Below are positions 2 through 10,449 of a stretch of DNA of 11,167 bases, one piece after another. A program made the translations under genes and the position numbers. Under the pieces are notes generated by a model that made no database searches, was not told the origin of the DNA, and saw only the letters and a list, made by a program, of their open reading frames with translations. Numbering within the stretch: the first letter of the stretch is position 1; every line of letters starts with the position of its first letter. The DNA is from Deltaproteobacteria bacterium (GTDB lineage: Bacteria; Desulfobacterota; Syntrophia; Syntrophales; UBA5619). The DNA lies in assembly GCA_026388365.1 (NCBI GenBank), contig JAPLJW010000330.1, forward strand, positions 1 to 11,167, given 5' to 3'.

Positions 2-1051
2 TTCGGGATTCCCAACTGGTTCGAACACGTGGCCGCGGAGCATCGGGCGGCGCGCGAGGCGGTCGTGCTGTTCGACCAGTCCTCGTTCAGCAAGTTCGAG
101 GTGACGGGGGCCGGGGCGCTTGCCTTCCTGAATCATGTGGCGGCGGCCAGTCTGGACCGGCCCGTGGGATCGACCGTCTATACCCAGCTCTGCAACGAAC
201 GGGGGGGAATCGAAGCGGACATTACCATCTCCCGGGTGGAAGAAGAGCGGTTCTTTGTGATCACGGGTACGGCCTTCGCGGTGCACGATTTGATGTGGCT
301 CAAACGGCACCTGCCGAAGGACGGCTCCGTCTCGCTGCGCGACGTCACCTCCTCTTTGGCAATGATCAATGTCTGCGGTCCCTCCTCCCGGGAACTCCTG
401 CAGCGTCTCTCGGAGGACGACTTCGCCAATGACGCCTTTCCCTTCGGTCAATGCCGGCAGGTCGTCATCGGTTACGCCCCGGTTCTGGCACTCAGAGTGA
501 CCTACATCGGCGAATTGGGCTATGAACTCTACATGCCGCCGGAATACGCCGCCAATCTCTATGAGAGCCTCTGGGCGGCCGGGCAGGATCTTGGGATCCG
601 AAACGCCGGATACCGGGCGATCGATTCACTCCGGCTGGAAAAGGGCTACTGCTACTGGGGCGCCGAGGTATCGCCGGATTACAGCCCCTACGATGCGGGG
701 ATCGGTTTTGCCGTGAGTCTCGACAAGGGTCCCTTCGTAGGGCGGGACGCCCTGCTGAGGATCAAAAAAGAGGGGCCGGCCTGGAAACTCTGCCTGTTTA
801 CCCTGGATACCGACCGTCCGATGCTCCTCTACGGAGGAGAGACCATCACCTGCCGGGGCAAGGTGGTCGGCGTGGTATCCAGCGGCGGTTTTGGGCACAC
901 CGTGAGAAAGACGATCGCGATGGGTTATCTGTCCGCCGAGGACTCGCAGGTTGCCGACGGCTATGCAGTCGAGGTCTACGGGGAATCCTTTCCGGCCACC
1001 CGTCTGGCGAAGGCCCCGTACGATCCGGAGCGCCGGAGAATTTTTCTGTAG
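2..1051 (+). CDS. GcvT-type folate-binding aminomethyltransferase domain, likely C-terminal half of a dimethylglycine/sarcosine dehydrogenase-like protein (5' partial)
   Basis: The reading frame is open to the window edge, and the residues before the first GTG (nt 29) continue the family pattern (F-G-I-P-N-W-F-E-H then V-A-A-E-H-R-A-x-R-E), so the gene begins outside the window. Recognisable features are the L-F-D-Q-S-S-F-S-K-F segment (about nt 70-100), typical of the start of the GcvT domain in dimethylglycine and sarcosine dehydrogenases, the Y-I-G-E-L-G-Y-E-L-Y motif (nt 503-532) and S-L-R-L-E-K-G-Y-x-Y-W-G (nt 626-661), followed by a GcvT C-terminal barrel. In this family the domain binds tetrahydrofolate and accepts the one-carbon unit released by oxidation of an N-methyl amine. 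Whether an FAD-dependent amine oxidase domain precedes it cannot be seen; a stand-alone GcvT paralogue is the alternative. The gene stops with TAG at 1049-1051, 143 nt before the ABC binding-protein gene. Its closeness to a transporter and N-methyl methyltransferases suggests a role in N-methyl catabolism (inference). Confidence 0.85.
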   Translation, partial: FGIPNWFEHVAAEHRAAREAVVLFDQSSFSKFEVTGAGALAFLNHVAAASLDRPVGSTVYTQLCNERGGIEADITISRVEEERFFVITGTAFAVHDLMWLKRHLPKDGSVSLRDVTSSLAMINVCGPSSRELLQRLSEDDFANDAFPFGQCRQVVIGYAPVLALRVTYIGELGYELYMPPEYAANLYESLWAAGQDLGIRNAGYRAIDSLRLEKGYCYWGAEVSPDYSPYDAGIGFAVSLDKGPFVGRDALLRIKKEGPAWKLCLFTLDTDRPMLLYGGETITCRGKVVGVVSSGGFGHTVRKTIAMGYLSAEDSQVADGYAVEVYGESFPATRLAKAPYDPERRRIFL

Positions 1052-1194
1052 GCCGAATAAACGATTAATGGTAATATCGAAAAGAAACAATTTGATGCCT
1101 GGATGAAAGCGGGCGGATGCCCGGGGATGCAAGGATGGAAAGGGGGATCATGCCATAGGTTAAACCAGATTATTTTAAAAGAAGGAGGTAACAT

Positions 1195-2193
1195 ATGACC
1201 GGCAAGAGGAGATTCATCGGTTTTGTGCTGATCGCGGCACTGACGGGTATGATGATGGTTGCGGCCCCCTGTTGGGCGCAACCGGAGCTGCGCGTTTACA
1301 CCCACAATGAAACGGCCGAGATGGAGAAATGGGTGCCGGTGGCGGAAAAGGCAATCGGCATGAAGATCGTCTGGAGCCCCCGCCTCGCATCCAACGAACT
1401 CTGGACCCGCGTTCTGACGGAAAACCCCAACTTCAACGCCGACGTGATCTGGGGATTCCTGAACTCCGATGCCCAGGTGGGCGCCCAGAGAGGGTTCTTT
1501 GTGCCCTACGCATCGTCGGCGTGGGCCGACATCCCCGCAGAATTCAAGGATCCGGATCATCAATGGTACGGCTACAACTACTGGTTTTCCGCCATCGCCG
1601 TGAATCCGGATCTTCTGAAAAAGAAAAACCTGCCCAAACCCAAATCCTGGGTTGACCTGACCAATCCCGTCTATAAGGGAGAGATCGTGATGCCCGATCC
1701 CGCGACGAGCGGCACGGCCTTCATTTTTGTCTCCGCCATCATGCAGATCTTCGGCGAGGACAAGGGCTGGGAGATCCTGGAGAAGATCCACAAGAATGCC
1801 GGCCAGTACACCAAATCCGGCTCGGCTCCGGCCCAGTCGGTGGCCCAGGGTGAATATGCCATCGGGGTAAGCTGGGATCAGGCCGTCTACGGAAGGGTGG
1901 AGCAGAAATTTCCCATCGAAGGCCTCATCCCCGCGGAGGGTACCGCCTTTGATCTGGAGTCCGTGGCAATCCTGAAGGGGACCAAAAATCTCGCCGGCGC
2001 CAAGAAGCTGGTCGATTGGCTCGGCACCAAGGAGGGGCAGACGCAGATCGGTCTCCTCCGTTCGAAGGTGACCCGACCCGGAATCCCCGGAAAGGTGCTT
2101 GTCGATCCCAAGCTGATCAAGTATGACGCCCTCTGGGCCGGGGAGAACAAGAAGCGGATTATGACCGAGTGGGCCAAGCGTTTCTCGAAGTAA
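1195..2193 (+). CDS. ABC transporter periplasmic substrate-binding protein (family 1, Fe3+/putrescine/2-aminoethylphosphonate-like)
   Basis: This 332-residue protein starts at an ATG preceded by a near-perfect ribosome binding site (AAGGAGGT, 1183-1190). It has a clear secretion signal: basic K4-R5-R6, a hydrophobic core around residues 7-24 and a probable signal peptidase I site after A28 (C-W-A/Q-P); no convincing lipobox. The mature protein begins E-L-R-V-Y-T-H-N-E and carries the family's M-P-D-P-A-T-S-G-T-A-F stretch (residues about 164-174). The length fits AfuA/FbpA/PotD-like binding proteins. These deliver ligands such as ferric iron, polyamines, thiamine or 2-aminoethylphosphonate to a two-domain permease. 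The true ligand cannot be read from sequence; neighbouring demethylation genes point to a methylated amine or betaine-like compound (inference). It leads the transporter set and probably the whole downstream transcription unit. The 225-nt spacer after it holds repeats and a strong hairpin, which could allow higher expression of this gene than of the permease. Confidence 0.9.
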   Translation: MTGKRRFIGFVLIAALTGMMMVAAPCWAQPELRVYTHNETAEMEKWVPVAEKAIGMKIVWSPRLASNELWTRVLTENPNFNADVIWGFLNSDAQVGAQRGFFVPYASSAWADIPAEFKDPDHQWYGYNYWFSAIAVNPDLLKKKNLPKPKSWVDLTNPVYKGEIVMPDPATSGTAFIFVSAIMQIFGEDKGWEILEKIHKNAGQYTKSGSAPAQSVAQGEYAIGVSWDQAVYGRVEQKFPIEGLIPAEGTAFDLESVAILKGTKNLAGAKKLVDWLGTKEGQTQIGLLRSKVTRPGIPGKVLVDPKLIKYDALWAGENKKRIMTEWAKRFSK

Positions 2194-2212
2194 TCTCATC
2201 AATATAATTTAT

Positions 2213-2270
2213 GGGATTGCTTCGGTTTGCTCGCAATGACAAAAAGGCCTTTGGACTCCTCGCAATGACC
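2213..2270. repeat. Degenerate copies of the dispersed palindromic 'GATTGCTTCG...CGCAATGAC' repeat
   Basis: Nt 2215-2240 reads GATTGCTTCGG, TTTGCTC, GCAATGAC, with ATTGC/GCAAT as inverted ends. A second partial copy, CTCCTCGCAATGACC, lies at 2256-2270. I recognise this as the widespread repeat whose reverse strand begins GTCATTGCGAG and ends GAAGCAATC, known from many environmental bacterial genomes, where it generates spurious reading frames containing 'VIARS...' or 'SLRANRSNPI'-type peptides. Here it sits in the spacer between the binding-protein and permease genes. A mobile or REP-like origin is likely, with no coding capacity. Confidence 0.65.
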
Positions 2271-2285
2271 GATGGCCCGTTTTTT
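2241..2285 (+). terminator. Possible weak intrinsic terminator or attenuator between binding-protein and permease genes
   Basis: AAAAAGGCC (2241-2249) can pair with GGCC (2274-2277) and, across a CG bulge, with the T run at 2280-2285. The loop is about 24 nt and contains part of the dispersed repeat. The T6 run just after a GGCC stem is terminator-like, but the stem is only four G-C pairs plus A-U pairs, so termination would be partial at best. Partial termination here would favour the binding protein over the membrane components, as is common in ABC operons (inference). Confidence 0.25.
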
Positions 2286-2351
2286 AAAGTCTCAATTTTG
2301 GGAGCGGATGGATTAAGATTCCCAAGTTGGGTAAAGATTTCGACTTGTAAG

Positions 2352-2390
2352 CGCCGGCATGGAGCGGGATCCTGCCGCCCCATGCCGGCG
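2352..2390 (+). promoter_or_regulatory. Strong GC-rich hairpin in the spacer ahead of the permease gene
   Basis: CGCCGGCATGG (2352-2362) is perfectly inverted at 2380-2390 (CCATGCCGGCG). Inside this, after one A.C mismatch, GCGG (2364-2367) pairs with CCGC (2375-2378), leaving a 7-nt loop. No T tract follows, so it is not a standard terminator. The structure would bury the upstream ATG at 2359, which argues that translation of the permease starts downstream at 2419 or 2422. It may act as an RNA stability or processing element that stabilises the upstream binding-protein transcript (inference). Confidence 0.6.
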
Positions 2391-2418
2391 ACCGTGTCCA
2401 GCCGACATGGGAGCAGCG

Positions 2419-4365
2419 ATGATGCCTTTCCCGGGTAGCGCCATCCTGAAACAGCAGATGGATGATTTCCGGCATATTTTGCGCCGGCCAAGTCTGCTTT
2501 TTGTCACCGCCGTCTCGGTTCTGCTGATTTTCCTCTTTATCGTCTTCCCGATCGGTTCCGTGCTGATCAAGAGTTTCACCGTCAGCTACCCGACGGTCAC
2601 GATCACCTTTCCGGCGGTCAACCCAACCGGGGTGGAAACGGAGAAAAGGGCCACCGACTCCCTGCGCGTGATTTTCAAGGAGATCCAGGGAATCGAGCAG
2701 ACCCGGTTCAAAAAGGAGAATGGAGCGGCCGTCCATACCGTCCGTTTTCGCAAGGACTGGGATGATCTCAAAGGCTTCAACGACGTCAAACGCGCGATCA
2801 AGCGCAACAAGGATACCCTGGAGCCACTGGTCTTGGGTGCGAAGCTCTCCCTGGGCAAGGAGGTGACGGCAAGCCTCGCCACCTACATGGATTTCTTCTC
2901 CGGCGGACGTTATTACCGGGCGCTGAAAAACAGCATTGTTGTGGCGATCGTCACGACGCTGCTGGTGATTCCACTCGCCTTCTGTTTTGCCTTCCTGGGG
3001 CTCAATGGACCGGCCCTGCTGAAGATTCCTCTGCGGTTGCTCGGCCTCATCCCGCTGGTGGCGCCGCCCTTCATCTTTTCGCTGGCTCTGATCATCATCG
3101 GCGGCCGTCACGGCATCCTGACCCGGATGCTGGAGTTGCCCTTCAACATCTACGGCTGGCGGGGGGTGATCATCGCCCAGGTGATCACCTTCCTGCCGCT
3201 GGGATACCTGATGATCGAAAACGTTCTGTGCTCTCTGGGCTCCAACCTGGAGGAGGCCGCCTGTGACATGCGCGCCACCGACTGGCAGATCCTCTGCAAG
3301 ATCACCATTCCGCTTGCAGCCCCGGGGATTCTGAAGGCGTCCCTCCTGGTTTTCATCCTCTCCATCGCCGACTTCGGGAATCCGATGCTGATCGGCGGGG
3401 ACGTTCCCTTCCTCTCCACGGGGGCCTATCTGCTGTGGGTCAGCGACAACAACCTGGAAATGGCGGCCGTCTTCTGCGTTTTTCTGGTGCTGCCGAGCCT
3501 GATCATCTTCGTGGTCAACGAGTATCTCCTCAAGGGGAAAGGCTACACCACCATCGGCGGCAAGCCCCAGCAAACGGAACGGAGGCCGATCGCCCCGAAC
3601 ATCCTCTATCCCATGCTGGGACTGGCGGCCATCGCCTCGGCGGTGATTCTGGTGAGCTTCGGCATCATTTTCTTCGGGGCCTTCACCAAGATCCTGATGG
3701 TGGACAACACCCTGACCCTGGAGCACTTCCGACGCCCCAACGGGTTCAGAACGCTGATCACGAGCCTCAAGTTTTCCCTTGGGGCAGCCCTGGTCGCCCC
3801 GGCGGTTGGCATTACCCTATCCTACATCCTGGTCCGCAAAAGGGTCCCGCTGAAGAAGGTTCTGGAGTCCCTGGCCCTGCTGGGGTTCGCCGTTCCCGGT
3901 ACGGTCATGGGGATCGGGTATATTCTGGCCTTCAACCACCCGCCGCTGCAGCTCACCGGAACCTTCATCATCCTGATTATCAACGAGGCATTCCGCAACC
4001 TCTCGGTGAGCCTCGAGGCCGGGGTGAGCAAGCTTCACCAGATCGATGTGGCCATCGAGGAGGCGGCGGCGGACATGGGCGCCGGCGCCGTCCGGACCTT
4101 TTTCAAAATCGTTCTGCCCCTGATCAGCTCCGCCTATGTCGCCGGCTTCATCTACACCTTCATGGTGGGCATGATTGCCGTGAGCGCGGTGATCTTCCTG
4201 ATCACGCCGGGGAACGACCTGGCAGCCCTCTACATCCTGAACGTGGCCGAACAGGGGTATCTGGGGATGGCCTGCGCAATTTCCACGATGCTCATCGCCG
4301 TCGTGCTGGCCTGCCTGGGCGGCCTGAAGTTTCTGGTCAAAATGACGAAAATCGAGATGTACTGA
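2419..4365 (+). CDS. ABC transporter permease with two fused transmembrane domains (FbpB/AfuB-like)
   Basis: I place the start at the ATG at 2419 (648 residues), or the adjacent ATG at 2422, because GGGAG at 2409-2413 is well spaced. An in-frame ATG at 2359 lacks a ribosome binding site and lies inside a hairpin stem. The protein has two BPD-type permease halves. Each carries an EAA loop that docks on the ATPase: E278-E-A-A-C-D-M-R-A-T-D-W near residues 278-300, and E547-E-A-A-A-D-M-G-A-G near 547-570. A first transmembrane helix spans about 27-50. Between it and the rest of half one is an unusually long polar segment (about 55-165), apparently on the outer face. The family usually has a much shorter connection there. 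Residues about 370-395 form a basic linker between the halves. The gene lies 13 nt upstream of the ATPase, confirming an importer of the binding-protein/permease/ATPase order. Ligand unknown. Confidence 0.9.
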   Translation: MMPFPGSAILKQQMDDFRHILRRPSLLFVTAVSVLLIFLFIVFPIGSVLIKSFTVSYPTVTITFPAVNPTGVETEKRATDSLRVIFKEIQGIEQTRFKKENGAAVHTVRFRKDWDDLKGFNDVKRAIKRNKDTLEPLVLGAKLSLGKEVTASLATYMDFFSGGRYYRALKNSIVVAIVTTLLVIPLAFCFAFLGLNGPALLKIPLRLLGLIPLVAPPFIFSLALIIIGGRHGILTRMLELPFNIYGWRGVIIAQVITFLPLGYLMIENVLCSLGSNLEEAACDMRATDWQILCKITIPLAAPGILKASLLVFILSIADFGNPMLIGGDVPFLSTGAYLLWVSDNNLEMAAVFCVFLVLPSLIIFVVNEYLLKGKGYTTIGGKPQQTERRPIAPNILYPMLGLAAIASAVILVSFGIIFFGAFTKILMVDNTLTLEHFRRPNGFRTLITSLKFSLGAALVAPAVGITLSYILVRKRVPLKKVLESLALLGFAVPGTVMGIGYILAFNHPPLQLTGTFIILIINEAFRNLSVSLEAGVSKLHQIDVAIEEAAADMGAGAVRTFFKIVLPLISSAYVAGFIYTFMVGMIAVSAVIFLITPGNDLAALYILNVAEQGYLGMACAISTMLIAVVLACLGGLKFLVKMTKIEMY

Positions 4366-4378
4366 AAGGGTTCGATCC

Positions 4379-5476
4379 ATGACGCAAAAAGAGAACACCC
4401 CCATATTGGAATTGCGGCACATCGTCAAACGCTTCGGCGCGATGACGGCGGTGGATGACGTCTCCCTGGATCTGGAACGGGGCAAGCTCTTCACCTTTCT
4501 GGGTCCCAGCGGCTGCGGCAAGACCACCCTCCTGCGGGTGGTGAGCGGATTCACCGTCCCTGACGGGGGGAAGGTTCTCCTCGACGGGGAGGACATCACC
4601 CGGGTCCAGCCCAACGGGCGCGACACGGCCATGGTTTTTCAGAACTACGCCCTTTTCCCCCACATGACAGTGGCCGCCAATATCGGATTCGGCCTCAAGA
4701 TCATGAAAAAATCCAAAAAGGAGATCACGGGCGAAGTGGAGAGGCTCCTGGCACTGGTGCAGATGGAGGGGCTCGGGGGACGACACCCCCATGAGCTTTC
4801 CGGCGGCCAGCAGCAGCGTGTGGCCCTCGCGAGGGCCTTGAGCCTCTGCCCCAAGATTCTTCTGCTGGATGAACCTCTCTCCAATCTCGACGCCAACCTG
4901 CGCCTGCTGATGCGGGCGGAGATCCGCAAACTCCATCGGCGCCTGGGCCTGTCGATCATCTTTGTTACCCACGACCAGGAAGAGGCGATGTCCCTCTCCG
5001 ATGAACTCGTCGTGATGGATCGCGGCAAGGTCAAGCAGGTCGGCTCGCCGACGCAGGTCTACGAGACCCCGGTCGATGATTTCGTGGCCCGGTTTATCGG
5101 GCACATCAATTTCATCCCCGGGGAACTCGTCGAAAAGTCGAACGGCCATCTCACCTTGCGAACCCGCCATGGCGACTGGTCCGTATCGCAGGTCCCGTTT
5201 CCCGTAGCCTGCGGCGACAAGCTCAAGGCCGTGGTCCGCCCCGAATCGATCGGCATTGCCGCCGCGTCCGATTGCGCCGGGACCGGCGAGGCCAACGTAA
5301 TCCCGGGACGGGTGGAGGCGGCCATGTACATAGGCTCGATCATCCGCTACACGGTGATCTGTGGTGAAGACACGATGTACGTCGATGAGGCGGATCCCCA
5401 GTACCGAGGGATACTCAAGGAAGGGACGGAGGTAAAGCTGTTTATGAAGAAACGAATCCATATGCTTAAAATATAA
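4379..5476 (+). CDS. ABC transporter ATP-binding protein (PotA/FbpC-like, with C-terminal TOBE domain)
   Basis: This 365-residue cytoplasmic ATPase powers the importer. All nucleotide-binding motifs are intact: Walker A G42-P-S-G-C-G-K-T49, Q-loop Q88, signature L140-S-G-G-Q-Q-Q-R147, Walker B I-L-L-L-D164-E165-P, D-loop S-N-L-D171, and switch histidine H198 in F-V-T-H-D-Q-E-E-A-M. The C-terminal third (about 235-360) is a TOBE-type regulatory domain containing V-R-P-E-S and ending V-K-L-F-M-K-K-R-I-H. Length and motifs fit the PotA/FbpC/UgpC class, whose members serve polyamines, iron, sugars or phosphonates, so the ligand is not revealed. It follows the permease by 13 nt. The MttB-like gene follows after only 29 nt, which links uptake directly to demethylation. 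Confidence 0.95.
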   Translation: MTQKENTPILELRHIVKRFGAMTAVDDVSLDLERGKLFTFLGPSGCGKTTLLRVVSGFTVPDGGKVLLDGEDITRVQPNGRDTAMVFQNYALFPHMTVAANIGFGLKIMKKSKKEITGEVERLLALVQMEGLGGRHPHELSGGQQQRVALARALSLCPKILLLDEPLSNLDANLRLLMRAEIRKLHRRLGLSIIFVTHDQEEAMSLSDELVVMDRGKVKQVGSPTQVYETPVDDFVARFIGHINFIPGELVEKSNGHLTLRTRHGDWSVSQVPFPVACGDKLKAVVRPESIGIAAASDCAGTGEANVIPGRVEAAMYIGSIIRYTVICGEDTMYVDEADPQYRGILKEGTEVKLFMKKRIHMLKI

Positions 5477-5505
5477 ACCCTTTTCAAGGAAAGAAAGGAT
5501 CATTC

Positions 5506-6906
5506 ATGAACTGGGCGGAATTCCTGACCGCGGAAGAGATCATCCTGGTGCGCAACGAAAAGGCGCGCCGGATCTTTGCCCGGGCGGGATGCCGGGTGGA
5601 GAGTGAAAGAGGAGTAGTCAAAATTCCGGGGAAGGTGGTCGAAGAATACCGAAAGGCGTTTCCGCCATCGTTTACCTTCCGCGGCCGCGACCCCCGGTAC
5701 GATCGCACCATTCCGCAGGACGGGCCGATCATGATTACCGCAAGCTCCGCACCGGACATCATCGATCCGGAAACGGGCCGGCAGCGAAGGGCCACCTCCG
5801 GGGACATCGCCGGGATCGCCCATCTGGTCAATGAACTGCCGGGGTACGATGTCTTTTCCATCTCGACCCTTGCCGCCAATGCACCGGAGGGGCTCTCCAG
5901 CCTGACCCGGTTTTACGCCGCATTGCGGAATTGCGCAAAACCGGTGCGGAGCAATACCCCGAACATGAAGGAACTGGAAGATGTCCTGGCATTGGGGGCG
6001 ATCATTGCGGGCGGTGAAGAGGCCTACCGGGAGAGGCCGCTCATCAACCATCACTACTGTCCTGTGGTCTCTCCACTCACCATGGATGTGGAGTCCACGG
6101 AGGCGGTCATCTATCTGACCGGGAAGGGGCTGCCGGTCTATGGGACGATCTGCCCCAATGCGGGGATGAGCTCGCCGCTCAGCCTGATTGCGACTCTGGC
6201 CCAGGGGAATGCCGAGTTCCTGGCCCTGGCCGTGTTGATGCAGATGGTCCGGATCGGCACCCCGCTGATCTATGCGGTGCTGGCCACGGTGGCCGACATG
6301 AGAACGGGAAATTACGCCCCCGGGGCGATCGAGACGGCGATACTCCAGATGGGACACAGCCAGATGGCCCGGTATTACAATGTGCCGTCCGGGGGCTATA
6401 TCGGTTTGACGAACGCCCATGTCAACGATGCGCAATCCGGTTATGAAACGGGCATGGGCACGACGGCGGCGCTTCTGGGAGGGATCGACATGCTCAACAT
6501 GGGCGGACTCCTGGGAAGCCTTATGGTATTTGACTTTGCCAAGGTGATGATCGATCACGAAATCGCGATGATGCTGAAGCACTTGCGAAATGGGATGCGG
6601 TACCGGCAGGATGATCTGTGCCTGGGGCTCATTGCTATGGTCGGACCGGGCGGAACCTTCATGGACCAGGAGCATACGCTGGAGAAGATGCGCACGGCCG
6701 CCTATCTGCCGAAGGTCGCGACGCGGGAGATGAGGGAACGCTGGGAAAAAGAGGGGCGGATGGAGATCGGATTCCGGGCCTTGACGGAGGCGAGACGAAT
6801 CCTGGCCAAGGATAATCCCGCACTCTTCGATGCGGAGCTGGATCGGAAGATCCTCGCCCGTTTTCCAAGGATTGAAAAGATTACCGTTTCGGGAACTCCC
6901 GTCTGA
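5506..6906 (+). CDS. MttB-superfamily corrinoid methyltransferase, pyrrolysine-free
   Basis: The start ATG has AAAGGA at 5494-5499. The 466-residue product belongs to the trimethylamine methyltransferase (MttB, COG5598) superfamily. Hallmarks are F-T-F-R-G-R-D-P-R-Y-D (57-66), the N-D-A-Q-S-G-Y-E-T-G-M-G core (307-318), D-F-A-K-V-M-I-D-H-E-I-A (343-354) and V-G-P-G-G-T-F near 379-385, followed by H-T-L-E-K-M-R (390-396). These enzymes move a methyl group from a quaternary or tertiary amine to the cobalt of a partner corrinoid protein. Archaeal MttB carries pyrrolysine encoded by TAG; here there is no in-frame TAG, so it belongs with non-pyrrolysine homologues such as MtgB (glycine betaine), MtpB (proline betaine) and MtcB (carnitine). 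Substrate cannot be assigned. The N-terminus looks one or two helices shorter than many relatives, with no good start further upstream. The partner is probably the corrinoid protein 45 nt downstream. Confidence 0.9.
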   Translation: MNWAEFLTAEEIILVRNEKARRIFARAGCRVESERGVVKIPGKVVEEYRKAFPPSFTFRGRDPRYDRTIPQDGPIMITASSAPDIIDPETGRQRRATSGDIAGIAHLVNELPGYDVFSISTLAANAPEGLSSLTRFYAALRNCAKPVRSNTPNMKELEDVLALGAIIAGGEEAYRERPLINHHYCPVVSPLTMDVESTEAVIYLTGKGLPVYGTICPNAGMSSPLSLIATLAQGNAEFLALAVLMQMVRIGTPLIYAVLATVADMRTGNYAPGAIETAILQMGHSQMARYYNVPSGGYIGLTNAHVNDAQSGYETGMGTTAALLGGIDMLNMGGLLGSLMVFDFAKVMIDHEIAMMLKHLRNGMRYRQDDLCLGLIAMVGPGGTFMDQEHTLEKMRTAAYLPKVATREMRERWEKEGRMEIGFRALTEARRILAKDNPALFDAELDRKILARFPRIEKITVSGTPV

Positions 6907-6951
6907 TATGCCAAGAAAGGGGAGATCTATTCTGATAAGGAGGTAGGTTTC

Positions 6952-7578
6952 ATGGCCGTCCAGGAGATATTCAATGCGGTGCTGGCCTTCGAGCAGGACC
7001 GTACCGCCGATCTGGTCAGGGAGGAATTGCAGAAAAAGACGGATCTGCAACTCATTTTGAACGAGGGGCTCGTCCGGGCCATGGATGAGGTCGGCCGGCG
7101 TTTCAGCACCGGCGAGTTTTTTTTGCCGGAGATGCTTCTCGCTGCAAAGACCATGAAGGCGGGGCTGGAGGTACTGCGGCCCCATCTCTCTTCCAATATG
7201 GGAGAGCTCCTGGGAACCGTCGTCATCGCCACCGTAAAAGGCGATCTCCATGATATCGGCAAAAACCTGGTGGCCATGATGCTTGAGGGGGCTGGTTTCA
7301 AGGTGATCAATCTGGGCGTTGATGTGGATGGGGATGGTTTCGTCCGGGCGGCGGAGGAGCACAAGGCGGATTTGGTTTGCATGTCGGCCCTGCTGACCAC
7401 CACCATGCCAGCCATGGCTGTGGCGGTCAAGGCCGTTCACGCGCATGATCCCCGGGTGCGGACCATGGTGGGCGGTGCGCCGGTCACAAAGGCTTTTGCC
7501 GATCAGATCGGCGCCGACGCTTACAGCGCTGATGCCCCCGATGCGGTGATCATGGCCCGGAAACTGATGGCCGGTTGA
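6952..7578 (+). CDS. Corrinoid (B12-binding) methyl carrier protein, MtbC/MttC-like (first of two)
   Basis: The ATG follows a strong AAGGAGGT site at 6936-6943. The 208-residue product has the standard two-domain build. A helical cap domain (about 1-85) includes the S-T-G-E-F-F-L-P-E-M motif (52-61). A Rossmann-type B12-binding domain follows, with D98-L-H100-D-I-G103-K-N. H100 should be the lower cobalt ligand and D98 its hydrogen-bond partner, as in methionine synthase; S145-A-L-L-T-T and G174-G-A-P-V complete the pocket. It is a cytoplasmic shuttle carrying methyl from the MttB-like enzyme to an acceptor methyltransferase not found in this window. It sits between its probable partner (45 nt upstream) and a second corrinoid gene (71 nt downstream). 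Confidence 0.93.
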   Translation: MAVQEIFNAVLAFEQDRTADLVREELQKKTDLQLILNEGLVRAMDEVGRRFSTGEFFLPEMLLAAKTMKAGLEVLRPHLSSNMGELLGTVVIATVKGDLHDIGKNLVAMMLEGAGFKVINLGVDVDGDGFVRAAEEHKADLVCMSALLTTTMPAMAVAVKAVHAHDPRVRTMVGGAPVTKAFADQIGADAYSADAPDAVIMARKLMAG

Positions 7579-7649
7579 ATGCAAAAATAACAGAATCTTG
7601 ATGCACGTTGAATGTATCTCTTTCAAATGAAACGCAGGAGGGTGGATCA

Positions 7650-8300
7650 ATGGACAAGATGGAGCTGTTTGCAGGGTTGATAGACGCCATGGTTTCCCTG
7701 GAAAAGGAAAAGGTCTTACATCTAACGCAAAAGGCGTTGGAGATGGATCTGGACCCACTGGATATTATCGATCATGGACTGCTGCCGGGATTGACGGAGA
7801 TCGGCAGGCAGTTTGAGAACGAAGAGGTATTTCTTCCGGAGCTGATGCTCTCGGCCATGGTGTTCCAGAAAGCAATGGCCATCCTGCAACCCCGGATTCA
7901 GGCGCAGGGCGCGAAATCCCGGAAGAAGGGCACCGTGGTAATCGGCACCGTAAAAGGGGACATGCACTATATCGGGAAGAATATCGTCCGGCTGCTGCTG
8001 GAGATCAACGGTTTCGAGGTACATGATCTCGGCGTCGATGTGGATCCGCTCAAATTCGTCCAGAAGGCCAGGGAGGTCGAGGCCGATATCATTGCCCTTT
8101 CGGCGCTTCTGACCACCACCCTTGTGGGTCAGAGGGATGTGATCGAGGCCCTGGTAGGACTGGGGGTCCGTGACCGCTTCAAGGTCCTGGTCGGCGGGGG
8201 GGCCGTAACAAAAAAATGGTCCGAGGATATCAAGGCGGACGGTTATGCGGAAACGGCTTACGCCGCCGTGGAAATGGCCGCTTTTTTTGTACGGGGTTAA
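7650..8300 (+). CDS. Corrinoid (B12-binding) methyl carrier protein, MtmC-like (second of two)
   Basis: I use the ATG at 7650 (216 residues) because AGGAGGGTG at 7636-7644 is correctly spaced; an in-frame ATG at 7608 has no ribosome binding site and would add non-homologous residues. The cap domain contains F-E-N-E-E-V-F-L-P-E (55-64). The B12 domain has D104-M-H106-Y-I-G109-K-N, S151-A-L-L-T-T and G182-G-G-A-V. H106 is the predicted cobalt ligand. The residue after it is Tyr, where most relatives, including the neighbouring paralogue, have Asp; the D-x-H-x-x-G core itself is preserved. The two corrinoid proteins are clearly homologous but well diverged, so this is not a recent duplication. 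Only 18 nt separate it from the MtmB-like gene, its likely partner. Confidence 0.93.
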   Translation: MDKMELFAGLIDAMVSLEKEKVLHLTQKALEMDLDPLDIIDHGLLPGLTEIGRQFENEEVFLPELMLSAMVFQKAMAILQPRIQAQGAKSRKKGTVVIGTVKGDMHYIGKNIVRLLLEINGFEVHDLGVDVDPLKFVQKAREVEADIIALSALLTTTLVGQRDVIEALVGLGVRDRFKVLVGGGAVTKKWSEDIKADGYAETAYAAVEMAAFFVRG

Positions 8301-8318
8301 CAAGACAGGAGAGGGAAT

Positions 8319-9698
8319 ATGATCGATCTGATTGAAGTATTTGACAGGGCGGATCAAGGTCCGCTGATCTCGGACACGGATTACTACATGGGGCGCTTCG
8401 TACCGAAACTGGCCGAAGTGATCGCGCGCTACCGGATCAAGTGGGATAAAAATACGATTGTCAATACCGACGATGATCTTGCCGATCGCGTTTTTCAGGC
8501 GGCAATCGATCTGCTCGCGGAGACCGGGGCGTATTGTTCCGACAGCAACCGGGTGATGGAATTCAGCCGGGATGAGGTCCTCCGGGCGGTGGAACAGGCG
8601 CCAAAATTTGCCCGGTTCGGCGGGGGGCGCGAGGCGAAAACGATGTACGGGCGGACGGTGGACGATCCGTCGCGTCCCTGGATTCACATCGGCGGCGGCA
8701 TCTATACCACGGAGGAGCAGATCTACCTCGATACGGTGGAAGGAATGGCCGCCATCAGCATCGCCGACTCACTCAGCGTTCCTTCGATCCTTCACCTTCG
8801 GGGGAAGGACGCCCGCGTTCGATCGCCGCAGGAACTCCTGTCGGCCATCAAGACGGTCATCCTGGCCCGGGAGGGGATCAGGCGCTCCGGTCGCGCCGGC
8901 CTGCCCATCATCAATGGAATCTCGGCCGCCTCCAATGCGGTATCCATGATTGCCGCCGCGGCTCCGCAGTTCGGCCTGAGCATCACGGACGGATTCCTGG
9001 TTGATTTTCTATCCGAGATGATCGTCAATTATGAAGCCCTGCAGAAAGTGGCCTACTTCAGCAGCATCAGCGCCAACATCGGTTCCACCTCCACGCCGCT
9101 ATTCGGCGGCTATGCCGGCGGGGCGGAGGGGGTGGCCGTTCTGGCCACCTGCTACCTCATCATGGGCAGCCTCATCTACCGGGGCAGTTACCATTACAAT
9201 GCGCCGCTGCACCAGAGCCTCCATCTCTCTTCGACGAAACCCCTCCTCTGGGCGATCGGAATGTCCAACCAGGCCAATGCCCGCAACATGCGCTACCCTA
9301 CGGTCAATCTTCCCTATCTGGGAGGGGGCGCCGGGAGCAAGATGGTTCACTATGAAATGGCTGCCTACATGCTCGCCGTGGTGCCGGCCGGGGGCAACAT
9401 CTTTTCCGGACATCCGGCCAAGTCCGTGGAGCCCGATTCCCTGCTGCCCTGGGACCACCAGTTCCACGCCGAGATCGGTCTCGCCGCGGCAAAGTACAAC
9501 CGTAAGGACGCCGAGCCACTTGCGCAGGCGTTCTACAAGAAATATGAAGGGATGATCAAGAGTCCGCAGGCGGGGTTCCGGTATGCGCAAGTGTACGACC
9601 TGAAGAATAAAAAGATTTTCAACAGCGACTATCTCCGGATGCAGGACGAGGTGCGCGAGGAATTCCGCGAGATGGGGTTCGAGATCCAGCCGTCGTGA
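8319..9698 (+). CDS. MtmB-family (monomethylamine methyltransferase-like) corrinoid methyltransferase lacking pyrrolysine
   Basis: The start has AGGAGAGG at 8307-8314. At 459 residues it matches archaeal MtmB (about 458). Compared with Methanosarcina MtmB from memory, collinear matches include: F-D-R-A (8-11) near the N-terminus; L-L-A-E-T-G-A-Y-C-S-D-S-N-R-V (65-79) against an L-L-E-C-G-I-Y-C-T-D-T-H-R-I segment; R-G-K-D-A (161-165) against R-G-K-A; G-R-A-G-L-P-I-I (191-198) against G-R-P-G-M-G-V-Pyl; P-L-F-G-G-Y-A-G-G-A-E (260-270) against P-I-F-G-G-Y-A-G-G-I-E; and the C-terminal Y-D-L...M-G-F-E-I. Pyrrolysine 202 therefore aligns with I198, give or take one residue, and no TAG interrupts the frame. 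MtmB proteins transfer methyl from monomethylamine to the corrinoid protein MtmC. Without pyrrolysine the substrate and chemistry are unknown. It follows an MtmC-like gene by 18 nt. Confidence 0.87.
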   Translation: MIDLIEVFDRADQGPLISDTDYYMGRFVPKLAEVIARYRIKWDKNTIVNTDDDLADRVFQAAIDLLAETGAYCSDSNRVMEFSRDEVLRAVEQAPKFARFGGGREAKTMYGRTVDDPSRPWIHIGGGIYTTEEQIYLDTVEGMAAISIADSLSVPSILHLRGKDARVRSPQELLSAIKTVILAREGIRRSGRAGLPIINGISAASNAVSMIAAAAPQFGLSITDGFLVDFLSEMIVNYEALQKVAYFSSISANIGSTSTPLFGGYAGGAEGVAVLATCYLIMGSLIYRGSYHYNAPLHQSLHLSSTKPLLWAIGMSNQANARNMRYPTVNLPYLGGGAGSKMVHYEMAAYMLAVVPAGGNIFSGHPAKSVEPDSLLPWDHQFHAEIGLAAAKYNRKDAEPLAQAFYKKYEGMIKSPQAGFRYAQVYDLKNKKIFNSDYLRMQDEVREEFREMGFEIQPS

Positions 9699-9792
9699 GA
9701 TTCAATCCCAATCCGGCGACGCTCCATATCCCGGAGCAGGATCACCAAAAGTAACAATTTATTAGCATTCTTATCCAAAGGAGGTGCGACCG

Positions 9793-10449
9793 ATGCCGAC
9801 ACAAGCATCACAGGCTGCCCTGAACGGGCTGTGGGACCTGACGATGATCAAGTGGTACGTAATCCCCCTGCTGGCCATCGTCATCTATATCTACGTGACG
9901 GAAATGAAGAAGGCCAGAGAGACAGAGAACTGGAACGCCATCTTCGCGGGCCTCACCGTTTTCGGCATGGATTTCTTCAATGAGACCTGGAACGGCTGGG
10001 TCTTCCATTTCACCAACCATTCGGCCTTCTGGACGACCCCCGGCGACACGGCCTTAAGAACCATGATCGGATGGAACATCGAGATCATGTTCATGTTCGC
10101 CATTTCCGGGATCATCTACTACCATACCCTGGAAGACAAGACGGAAGTCAGGATCCTGGGGGTTCCGAACCGGTGGTTCTGGGCGATTGGCTATTCGGTC
10201 TTCTGCGTTTTCGTGGAGTGCCTGCTGAACATCGGAGGCCACCTCGTCTGGGAATACCCCTTCTGGAAACTCTCGTTCGGCGGCGTCTGGCTGATCTTCC
10301 TCTTTGGATACTTCCATTTCTACGTGGCGGTCATCCTTGTCCTCGGCATGAAAACGGACCGTGGCAAGATTATGGCGATCGGCCTGATCTACAGCGTTCC
10401 CATCGTCATGAACATCATCGGCAAGGGGATCTTTCACTGGGCCTATTGA
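9793..10449 (+). CDS. Unrecognised polytopic membrane protein (about six helices)
   Basis: AAGGAGG at 9778-9784 fixes the start at the ATG at 9793 (218 residues); an in-frame GTG at 9784 lies inside the ribosome binding site. I do not recognise the family. Hydrophobic segments lie at about 19-36, 48-72, 92-110, 128-148, 164-186 and 193-210. Several contain polar or charged residues within the membrane: D60, N63 and E64, N67 and H72, N95 and E97, E142 and N146, H150 and H175. The protein is rich in Trp, Phe and Tyr and has a conserved-looking F-F-N-E-T-W-N-G-W stretch (61-69). It lies 94 nt downstream of the MtmB-like gene, with a small hairpin (GCTCC/GGAGC, 9721-9737) in the gap. Context suggests a transporter, exporter or membrane partner for the methyl-amine pathway (inference). 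Confidence 0.8.
   Translation: MPTQASQAALNGLWDLTMIKWYVIPLLAIVIYIYVTEMKKARETENWNAIFAGLTVFGMDFFNETWNGWVFHFTNHSAFWTTPGDTALRTMIGWNIEIMFMFAISGIIYYHTLEDKTEVRILGVPNRWFWAIGYSVFCVFVECLLNIGGHLVWEYPFWKLSFGGVWLIFLFGYFHFYVAVILVLGMKTDRGKIMAIGLIYSVPIVMNIIGKGIFHWAY

Follow-up and report, generated by a model that had tools for sequence, protein, structure and literature searches.

What does a member of the MtmB methyltransferase family do when it lacks pyrrolysine (Pyl), the residue of the classic enzyme? The question is raised by a gene at positions 8319 to 9698 of an 11,167-nucleotide contig from a Deltaproteobacteria bacterium (JAPLJW010000330.1, analysed whole and hereafter the window), whose product we label P0001. 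The original prediction described an MtmB homologue without Pyl, collinear with MtmB and adjoined by a corrinoid protein, and, for want of any characterised non-Pyl MtmB homologue, suggested a new substrate and mechanism; the description stands, the claim of novelty is out of date. P0001 is very probably a non-Pyl corrinoid methyltransferase, and its substrate is probably something other than methylamine. Family, predicted fold, loss of Pyl and its contacts, an adjacent corrinoid gene and conservation are all read directly from sequences. Our whole proposal, to which we assign a probability of about 45%, is that P0001 is a methyl-donor:corrinoid methyltransferase of MtmB fold that works without Pyl and favours a phosphorylated or phosphonate amine, with phosphocholine as the first candidate. 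The gene and the codon at issue are as follows.

8319..9698, plus strand: predicted non-Pyl MtmB-family (PF05369) corrinoid methyltransferase, P0001 (Pfam, PDB, alignment)
8910..8912, plus strand: codon ATC of Ile198, at the Pyl202 column by MAFFT; HMMER against 1tv2 points to N199 (8913-8915) instead

The P0001 protein and its pyrrolysine column

The open reading frame runs from ATG 8319 to TGA 9698 (459 residues), contains no in-frame TAG, as had been claimed, and is directly preceded by AGGAGAGGG, which resembles a ribosome-binding site; promoter and terminator scans gave no enrichment over shuffles. P0001 matches PF05369 strongly (221.2 bits against a cut-off of 25, E 3.1e-65), with residues 2-453 on positions 1-449 of the 450-position profile. 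In HMMER, residues 3-454 align with 8-456 of PDB entries 1l2q and 1tv2 (458 residues, E ~1.5e-40), which bears out the predicted full-length collinearity (459 versus ~458 residues). PF05369 is the sole Pfam family at E 0.01, and no match to PF06253 (MttB superfamily, COG5598) was found in the protein. The motifs cited in the original prediction (G-R-x-G, F-G-G-Y-A-G-G-x-E and a C-terminal Y-D-V/L) are all present, as G-R-A-G at 191-194, FGGYAGGAE at 262-270 and Y-D-L at 426-428. P0001 is predicted to adopt the MtmB TIM-barrel fold of the PF05369 family.

Either I198 or its neighbour had been expected where Pyl sits. Both MAFFT and HMMER against 1l2q place I198 on the Pyl202 column, whereas HMMER against 1tv2 aligns N199 with that column and opens a gap at I198. 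The MtmB1 residues E229, E259 and Q333, which we take from MtmB structure work to be the Pyl contacts, correspond by MAFFT to L227, T257 and L331. Compared with MtmB1 of Methanosarcina barkeri (1nth, 1l2q, 1tv2), to which P0001 is 24% identical, the classic set of a TAG-encoded Pyl202 with E229, E259 and Q333 is therefore replaced by Ile, Leu, Thr and Leu.

These replacements are nearly invariant among homologues. In the set P0001-P0089, drawn from the best 120 of 182 matches and reduced to 87 sequences (P0001 included) after two of 89 were dropped for length, column 202 is Ile in 86 and Leu in one, while columns 229, 259 and 333 are Leu (87/87), Thr (86/87) and Leu (87/87), a single deviant cell at the three contact columns. 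The next group (P0090-P0121, n = 32) has no deviant cell there and carries Leu in 31 sequences and Ile in one at column 202. The loops differ likewise: GSTSTP is found in 83 and NLPYLGGG in 71 of the 87 sequences, with MDEQMP and NQYYPCAG as their MtmB1 counterparts. Ratios of nonsynonymous to synonymous divergence (dN/dS, NG86) for the pairs among the window, L001 and L025, the last two being the nearest to P0001 of the loci compared, are 0.085, 0.119 and 0.106; dS exceeds 1 in every pair and is thus near saturation. From the near-invariant pocket columns and loops, together with the low dN/dS, we read the P0001 lineage as one that is old, maintained and non-Pyl.

Placement among MtmB homologues

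Of 241 proteins gathered, 150 (430-510 residues) were aligned and 65 rows entered a maximum-likelihood tree, with a midpoint root for drawing only and seven inner forks open. P0001 falls in a bacterial, 26-row non-Pyl clade (100/100), separate from a 16-row MtmB1 group (100/99). Thirteen further non-Pyl proteins among the best 120 of 211 MtmB1 matches (P0130, P0133, P0136-P0140 and P0142-P0147) stand at 41-46% to MtmB1. All 13 keep E259, unlike P0001, and have I, L, F, M or T in place of Pyl; the Methanomethylophilaceae protein P0243 sits beside them in the tree. This near-Pyl group possibly represents a different route out of Pyl.

The statement that no non-Pyl MtmB homologue had been characterised is now outdated. 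MtqB of Methanococcoides methylutens Q3c, published in March 2026 and called by its authors the first non-Pyl MtmB homologue with shown function, acts on choline, tetramethylammonium and monomethylamine (42, 37 and 11 nmol/min/mg), according to the available part of that report (PMC13044021). P0001 belongs to this kind: both are MtmB homologues without Pyl that are paired with a corrinoid protein. MtqB is archaeal and, as that paper describes it, branches near the Pyl-encoding MtmBs, whereas P0001 is bacterial and lies in a clade apart from MtmB1 (PMC13044021). The 1,061-sequence tree in the same text contains many non-Pyl proteins of unknown function, and the P0001 clade may well be among them. 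No Methanococcoides name occurs among the best 120 of the 211 MtmB1 matches, most of which are nameless, or in 26 matches to the near-Pyl non-Pyl alignment. A second case comes from strain DCMF, in which the non-Pyl MtmB-superfamily protein Ga0180325_111810 had the highest fold change on dichloromethane in a 2022 proteome, as given in the accessible portion of PMC9768040. Like P0001, it is bacterial and has an unassigned substrate; it differs in being dichloromethane-induced.

Distribution was followed from G001, the Desulfohalobiaceae metagenome-assembled genome that carries L001. PF05369 is present in 13 of 395 genomes of its phylum, with 21 matches; TAG occurs in one of them (in G356, where the next match on the same contig is probably its C-terminal part), and two, both in G394, are interrupted by runs of N. 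At E 1e-60, P0001-like genes were found in two of 348 genomes of the class of G001 (G001 itself, 75%, and G450, 76%) and, at 30-43% identity, in nine of 23 genomes of the small class of G280. G280 alone has seven genes matched at that threshold or better, and all seven are free of internal stops. No relatives were found among plasmids or among viral contigs, and no match at E 1e-60 in 63 genomes of the class of G341, where an empty result is uninformative.

PylS matches at E 0.001 occur in 17 of 17 carrier and 13 of 14 control genomes, mostly weakly, and PylS was therefore counted only above its cut-off. On that count, it is present in four of 17 carriers (G001, G356, G280 and G300), genomes whose completeness is not given, and not in G450. 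A RACo-type activase is found in 16 of the 17 carriers; none was found in G356. Two RACo-type matches, G001:C50:40258-41004 and G242:C59:11294-12025, have one internal TGA each and may encode selenocysteine or be broken genes.

The gene array and candidate substrates

The P0001 gene closes an array of eight plus-strand genes spanning positions 2-9698 (GcvT-like, PhnS2-like, permease, ATPase, MttB-like, MtxC-1, MtxC-2 and MtmB). Its other members and the downstream gene are listed here, with ABC standing for ATP-binding cassette.

2..1051, plus strand: GcvT-like folate protein, cut by the window start (PF01571, PF08669; 4p9s E 4.8e-68, 1pj5 E 4.7e-67)
1195..2193, plus strand: substrate-binding protein, PhnS2-like (TIGR03261, 255.1 bits, below the cut-off of 392.75)
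2359..4365, plus strand: ABC transporter permease, PhnU2-like (TIGR03262, 263.7 bits, below the cut-off of 593.25)
4379..5476, plus strand: ABC transporter ATPase, PhnT2/PotA-like (TIGR03265, 360 bits, below the cut-off of 457.7)
5506..6906, plus strand: non-Pyl MttB-superfamily methyltransferase (PF06253; nearest solved structures MtgB, 9yce/2qne)
6952..7578, plus strand: corrinoid protein MtxC-1, DLHDIG motif (family and motif matches)
7650..8300, plus strand: corrinoid protein MtxC-2, DMHYIG cobalamin motif (PF02310 and PF02607; TIGR02370, 208.6 bits, below the cut-off of 215.3)
9784-10449: membrane-like protein of 221 residues downstream of mtmB, no Pfam or NCBIfam match at E 0.01

The adjoining corrinoid protein of the original prediction is MtxC-2, whose reading frame was listed from TTG 7608; ATG 7650 follows a GGAGG-like stretch. 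A DxHxxG corrinoid protein thus lies beside the methyltransferase, as in three-component systems, and MtxC-2 is the probable partner of P0001 by gene order. An MtxC-2-like gene is adjacent or one gene away in 17 of 22 non-Pyl MtmB copies on 21 stretches (window included, seven copies from G280); it is not near one of the two copies in L029, nor those in L035, L036, L061 and L062. MtxC-1 is probably the partner of the MttB-like protein, and a relative of it adjoins an MttB relative in L057. Against solved structures, the MttB-like protein scores 202 bits with MtgB and 136 with MttB. The GcvT-like protein is stand-alone and resembles the C-terminal folate domain of dimethylglycine dehydrogenase/oxidase, and the substrate-binding protein best matches 8x1a, 4r72 and 6wce in the PDB.

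From this context we infer the charge and identity of the substrate, the partnership and the direction of transfer. P0001 would bind an N-methylated amine with a positive charge of its own, which would make the Pyl adduct unnecessary, and the other end of the substrate would be held by the loops, rich in Ser, Thr and Gly, that stand in place of the Pyl pocket. The Co(I) corrinoid carried by the 7650-8300 protein would accept the methyl group, which would then move on to tetrahydrofolate. Uptake would be through the PhnS2/U2/T2-like ABC transporter of the window, and the MttB-like enzyme would probably perform a neighbouring demethylation step. The new mechanism once suggested is not required, since the route proposed for MtgB and MtqB, in which a substrate that is already charged gives its N-methyl group directly to Co(I), would suffice to explain the loss of Pyl. 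A new substrate, also suggested, is plausible.

The thread we see across the neighbourhoods of the clade is a phosphorylated or phosphonate amine, and context alone leads us, tentatively, to this substrate class, for example phosphocholine. In L030 and L035, a PhnX-like hydrolase (168 and 170 bits to TIGR03351, cut-off 218.9; 82% alike), a class III aminotransferase (64% alike) and MtmB lie on one strand, and L030 also has a window-type (PhnS2/U2/T2-like) ABC transporter with MtxC. At E 1e-25, PhnX-like genes occur in four of the 17 genomes, one each, in two of them 1.7 and 7 kb from MtmB. The close relatives L031, L058 and L059 (86-97% alike) combine GntR, a HisC-like aminotransferase, a transaldolase-like protein, MtxC, MtmB, HAD and alanine dehydrogenase; the GntR of L031, scanned there, is nearest PhnF in NCBIfam (114 bits, cut-off 157), and L031 also has a PhnU2-like permease (487 bits, cut-off 593). 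L027 and L060 share MtmB, MtxC, an APH kinase (49% alike) and a class III aminotransferase (33% alike). L001 and L025, nearest P0001, have MtxC, MtmB, a protein of 746-767 residues (with a weak PHP-like stretch in L001) and a phosphoethanolamine N-methyltransferase-like protein, to which L001 adds two choline-kinase-family genes, S-adenosylmethionine synthetase and an OpuAC-type transporter.

Separately, the segments L030:9612-19347 and L035:8280-12043 each form a possible operon for N-methylated aminoethylphosphonate. Ethanolamine-phosphate lyase was considered for the class III aminotransferases and dropped: L030 copy a is HemL-like, the L027 copy is omega-transaminase-like, and L030 copy b passes, among the models listed, only the functionless PRK06062.

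A model for activation by phosphorylation is the mth system of Eubacterium limosum, in which MthB, a non-Pyl corrinoid methyltransferase encoded near kinase and EamA genes, needs phosphocholine and works with MthC, MthA and MthK, as set out in the accessible part of PMC12155760. MthB belongs to the MttB superfamily and P0001 to MtmB, and the window, unlike the mth cluster, yielded no kinase gene. At L056:3873-12603 (G341), a relative of the window MttB-like protein (54-56%) is accompanied by a second MttB match (29%), HAD, two APH kinases and EamA; the kinases and EamA are of the same kinds as in the mth cluster, as far as that source describes it.

Several observations weigh against a phosphorylated or phosphonate substrate and the proposal built on it. 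The PhnS2/U2/T2, PhnX and PhnF matches are all below curated cut-offs, as are most functional matches, and MtmB is the only gene shared by every locus of the 26-row clade. PhnX-like genes of G356 and G375 are on contigs other than that of MtmB. PhnU2-like permeases also occur away from MtmB: six of 17 genomes contain 11 matches at E 1e-60, and two of these (G300:C25 and G168:C188) are within 5 kb of a clade MtmB. The L001 kinases are nearest GntI in NCBIfam and the L027 and L056 APH kinases nearest homoserine kinase, all below cut-off, and in the latter the Brenner motif is followed by DFD instead of DxE. Nor do the class III aminotransferases of L027 and L030 clearly belong to a phospho type. 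A kinase, a PhnX-like gene and a transporter never occur together at one locus, so subclades may differ in substrate. No relative above 76% identity to P0001 entered the neighbourhood comparison; the closer P0002 (95%) and P0007 (91%) lie on contigs of 407 kb and 130 kb. A scan of ten window proteins, in an array cut by the window start, brought up no recognisable methylcorrinoid:tetrahydrofolate methyltransferase. An unphosphorylated amine would fit L001, where the OpuAC-type binding protein is nearest 4xz6 (283 bits), which we take to be a trimethylamine N-oxide (TMAO) binder, and the permease passes the choline model (408 against a cut-off of 363), on the same strand and directly upstream of MtxC-MtmB.

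It is nearly as likely that P0001 takes methyl groups from a quaternary or otherwise charged amine in free, phosphate-less form (choline, TMAO, glycine betaine or tetramethylammonium), in the manner of MtqB or MtgB. Besides L001, the resemblance of the window MttB-like protein to MtgB and the activity of MtqB on choline and tetramethylammonium (PMC13044021, available part) agree with this; the window transporter, however, is of PhnS2/PotA and not OpuAC type, and the clade repeatedly carries kinase, phosphoethanolamine-methyltransferase and PhnX-like genes. We consider it unlikely that the MttB-like and MtmB-like enzymes strip successive methyls off one substrate (for example, phosphocholine to a dimethyl or monomethyl product) with the GcvT-like protein doing the folate step. 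Two methyltransferase:corrinoid pairs and a folate-type protein resembling that of dimethylglycine dehydrogenase do share one strand and one array, but no window-MttB match was found in the L001, L025 and L030 stretches and G341 has an MttB relative with no PF05369 match in its genome, so each enzyme works alone elsewhere. That P0001 is a Pyl gene with a recent TAG loss, an inactive or declining monomethylamine enzyme, is barely credible despite the shared length and fold, given the altered and near-invariant pocket columns, the tree, dN/dS near 0.1 and a 76% relative in a genome (G450) with no PylS match above cut-off.

For the favoured phosphorylated or phosphonate amines, no MtmB-family enzyme acting on them was found in the open-licence papers searched. 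In the accessible text of a study of methane in salt ponds, mtmB and C-P lyase genes are named separately (PMC8692437), and in what is available of PMC12478193 aminoethylphosphonate, corrinoid and methyltransferase come together only through a word in the reference list. Of the remaining papers, one concerns bee pollen and another the biosynthesis of dehydrofosmidomycin. Non-Pyl MtmB homologues are numerous; because the pocket of the P0001 clade differs from that of MtmB1 and its neighbours suggest testable substrates, this clade can reveal what the MtmB fold does without Pyl, and could show whether anaerobes use it to demethylate phosphorylated or phosphonate amines.

A histidine-linked subgroup

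At four loci (L028:8881-14319, L032:6351-11979, L063:8630-14208 and L064:5872-11309), a non-Pyl MtmB occurs with MtxC, a HisC-type aminotransferase, HutI and FtcD. In L028, where the families were scanned, imidazolonepropionase HutI reaches 473 bits where 298 are required, and glutamate formimidoyltransferase FtcD 412 where 221 are required; the counterparts in the other three are 73-84% alike. To judge by these neighbours, it looks like N-methylated histidine, such as hercynine, would be demethylated here before histidine breakdown; nothing on MtmB together with hercynine was found in the open-licence papers searched. A broader reading, which we regard as doubtful, is that the MtmB family radiated without Pyl towards several unrelated methylated substrates, the P0001 branch towards methylated phosphorylated or phosphonate amines (such as phosphocholine or N-methylated 2-aminoethylphosphonate) and this subgroup towards N-methylated histidine such as hercynine. 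If true, corrinoid demethylation would give anaerobes a way into the breakdown of phosphonates and methylhistidine. In the three subgroup genes read (L004, L005 and L007, the genes of L028, L032 and L064), the Pyl column is occupied by His.
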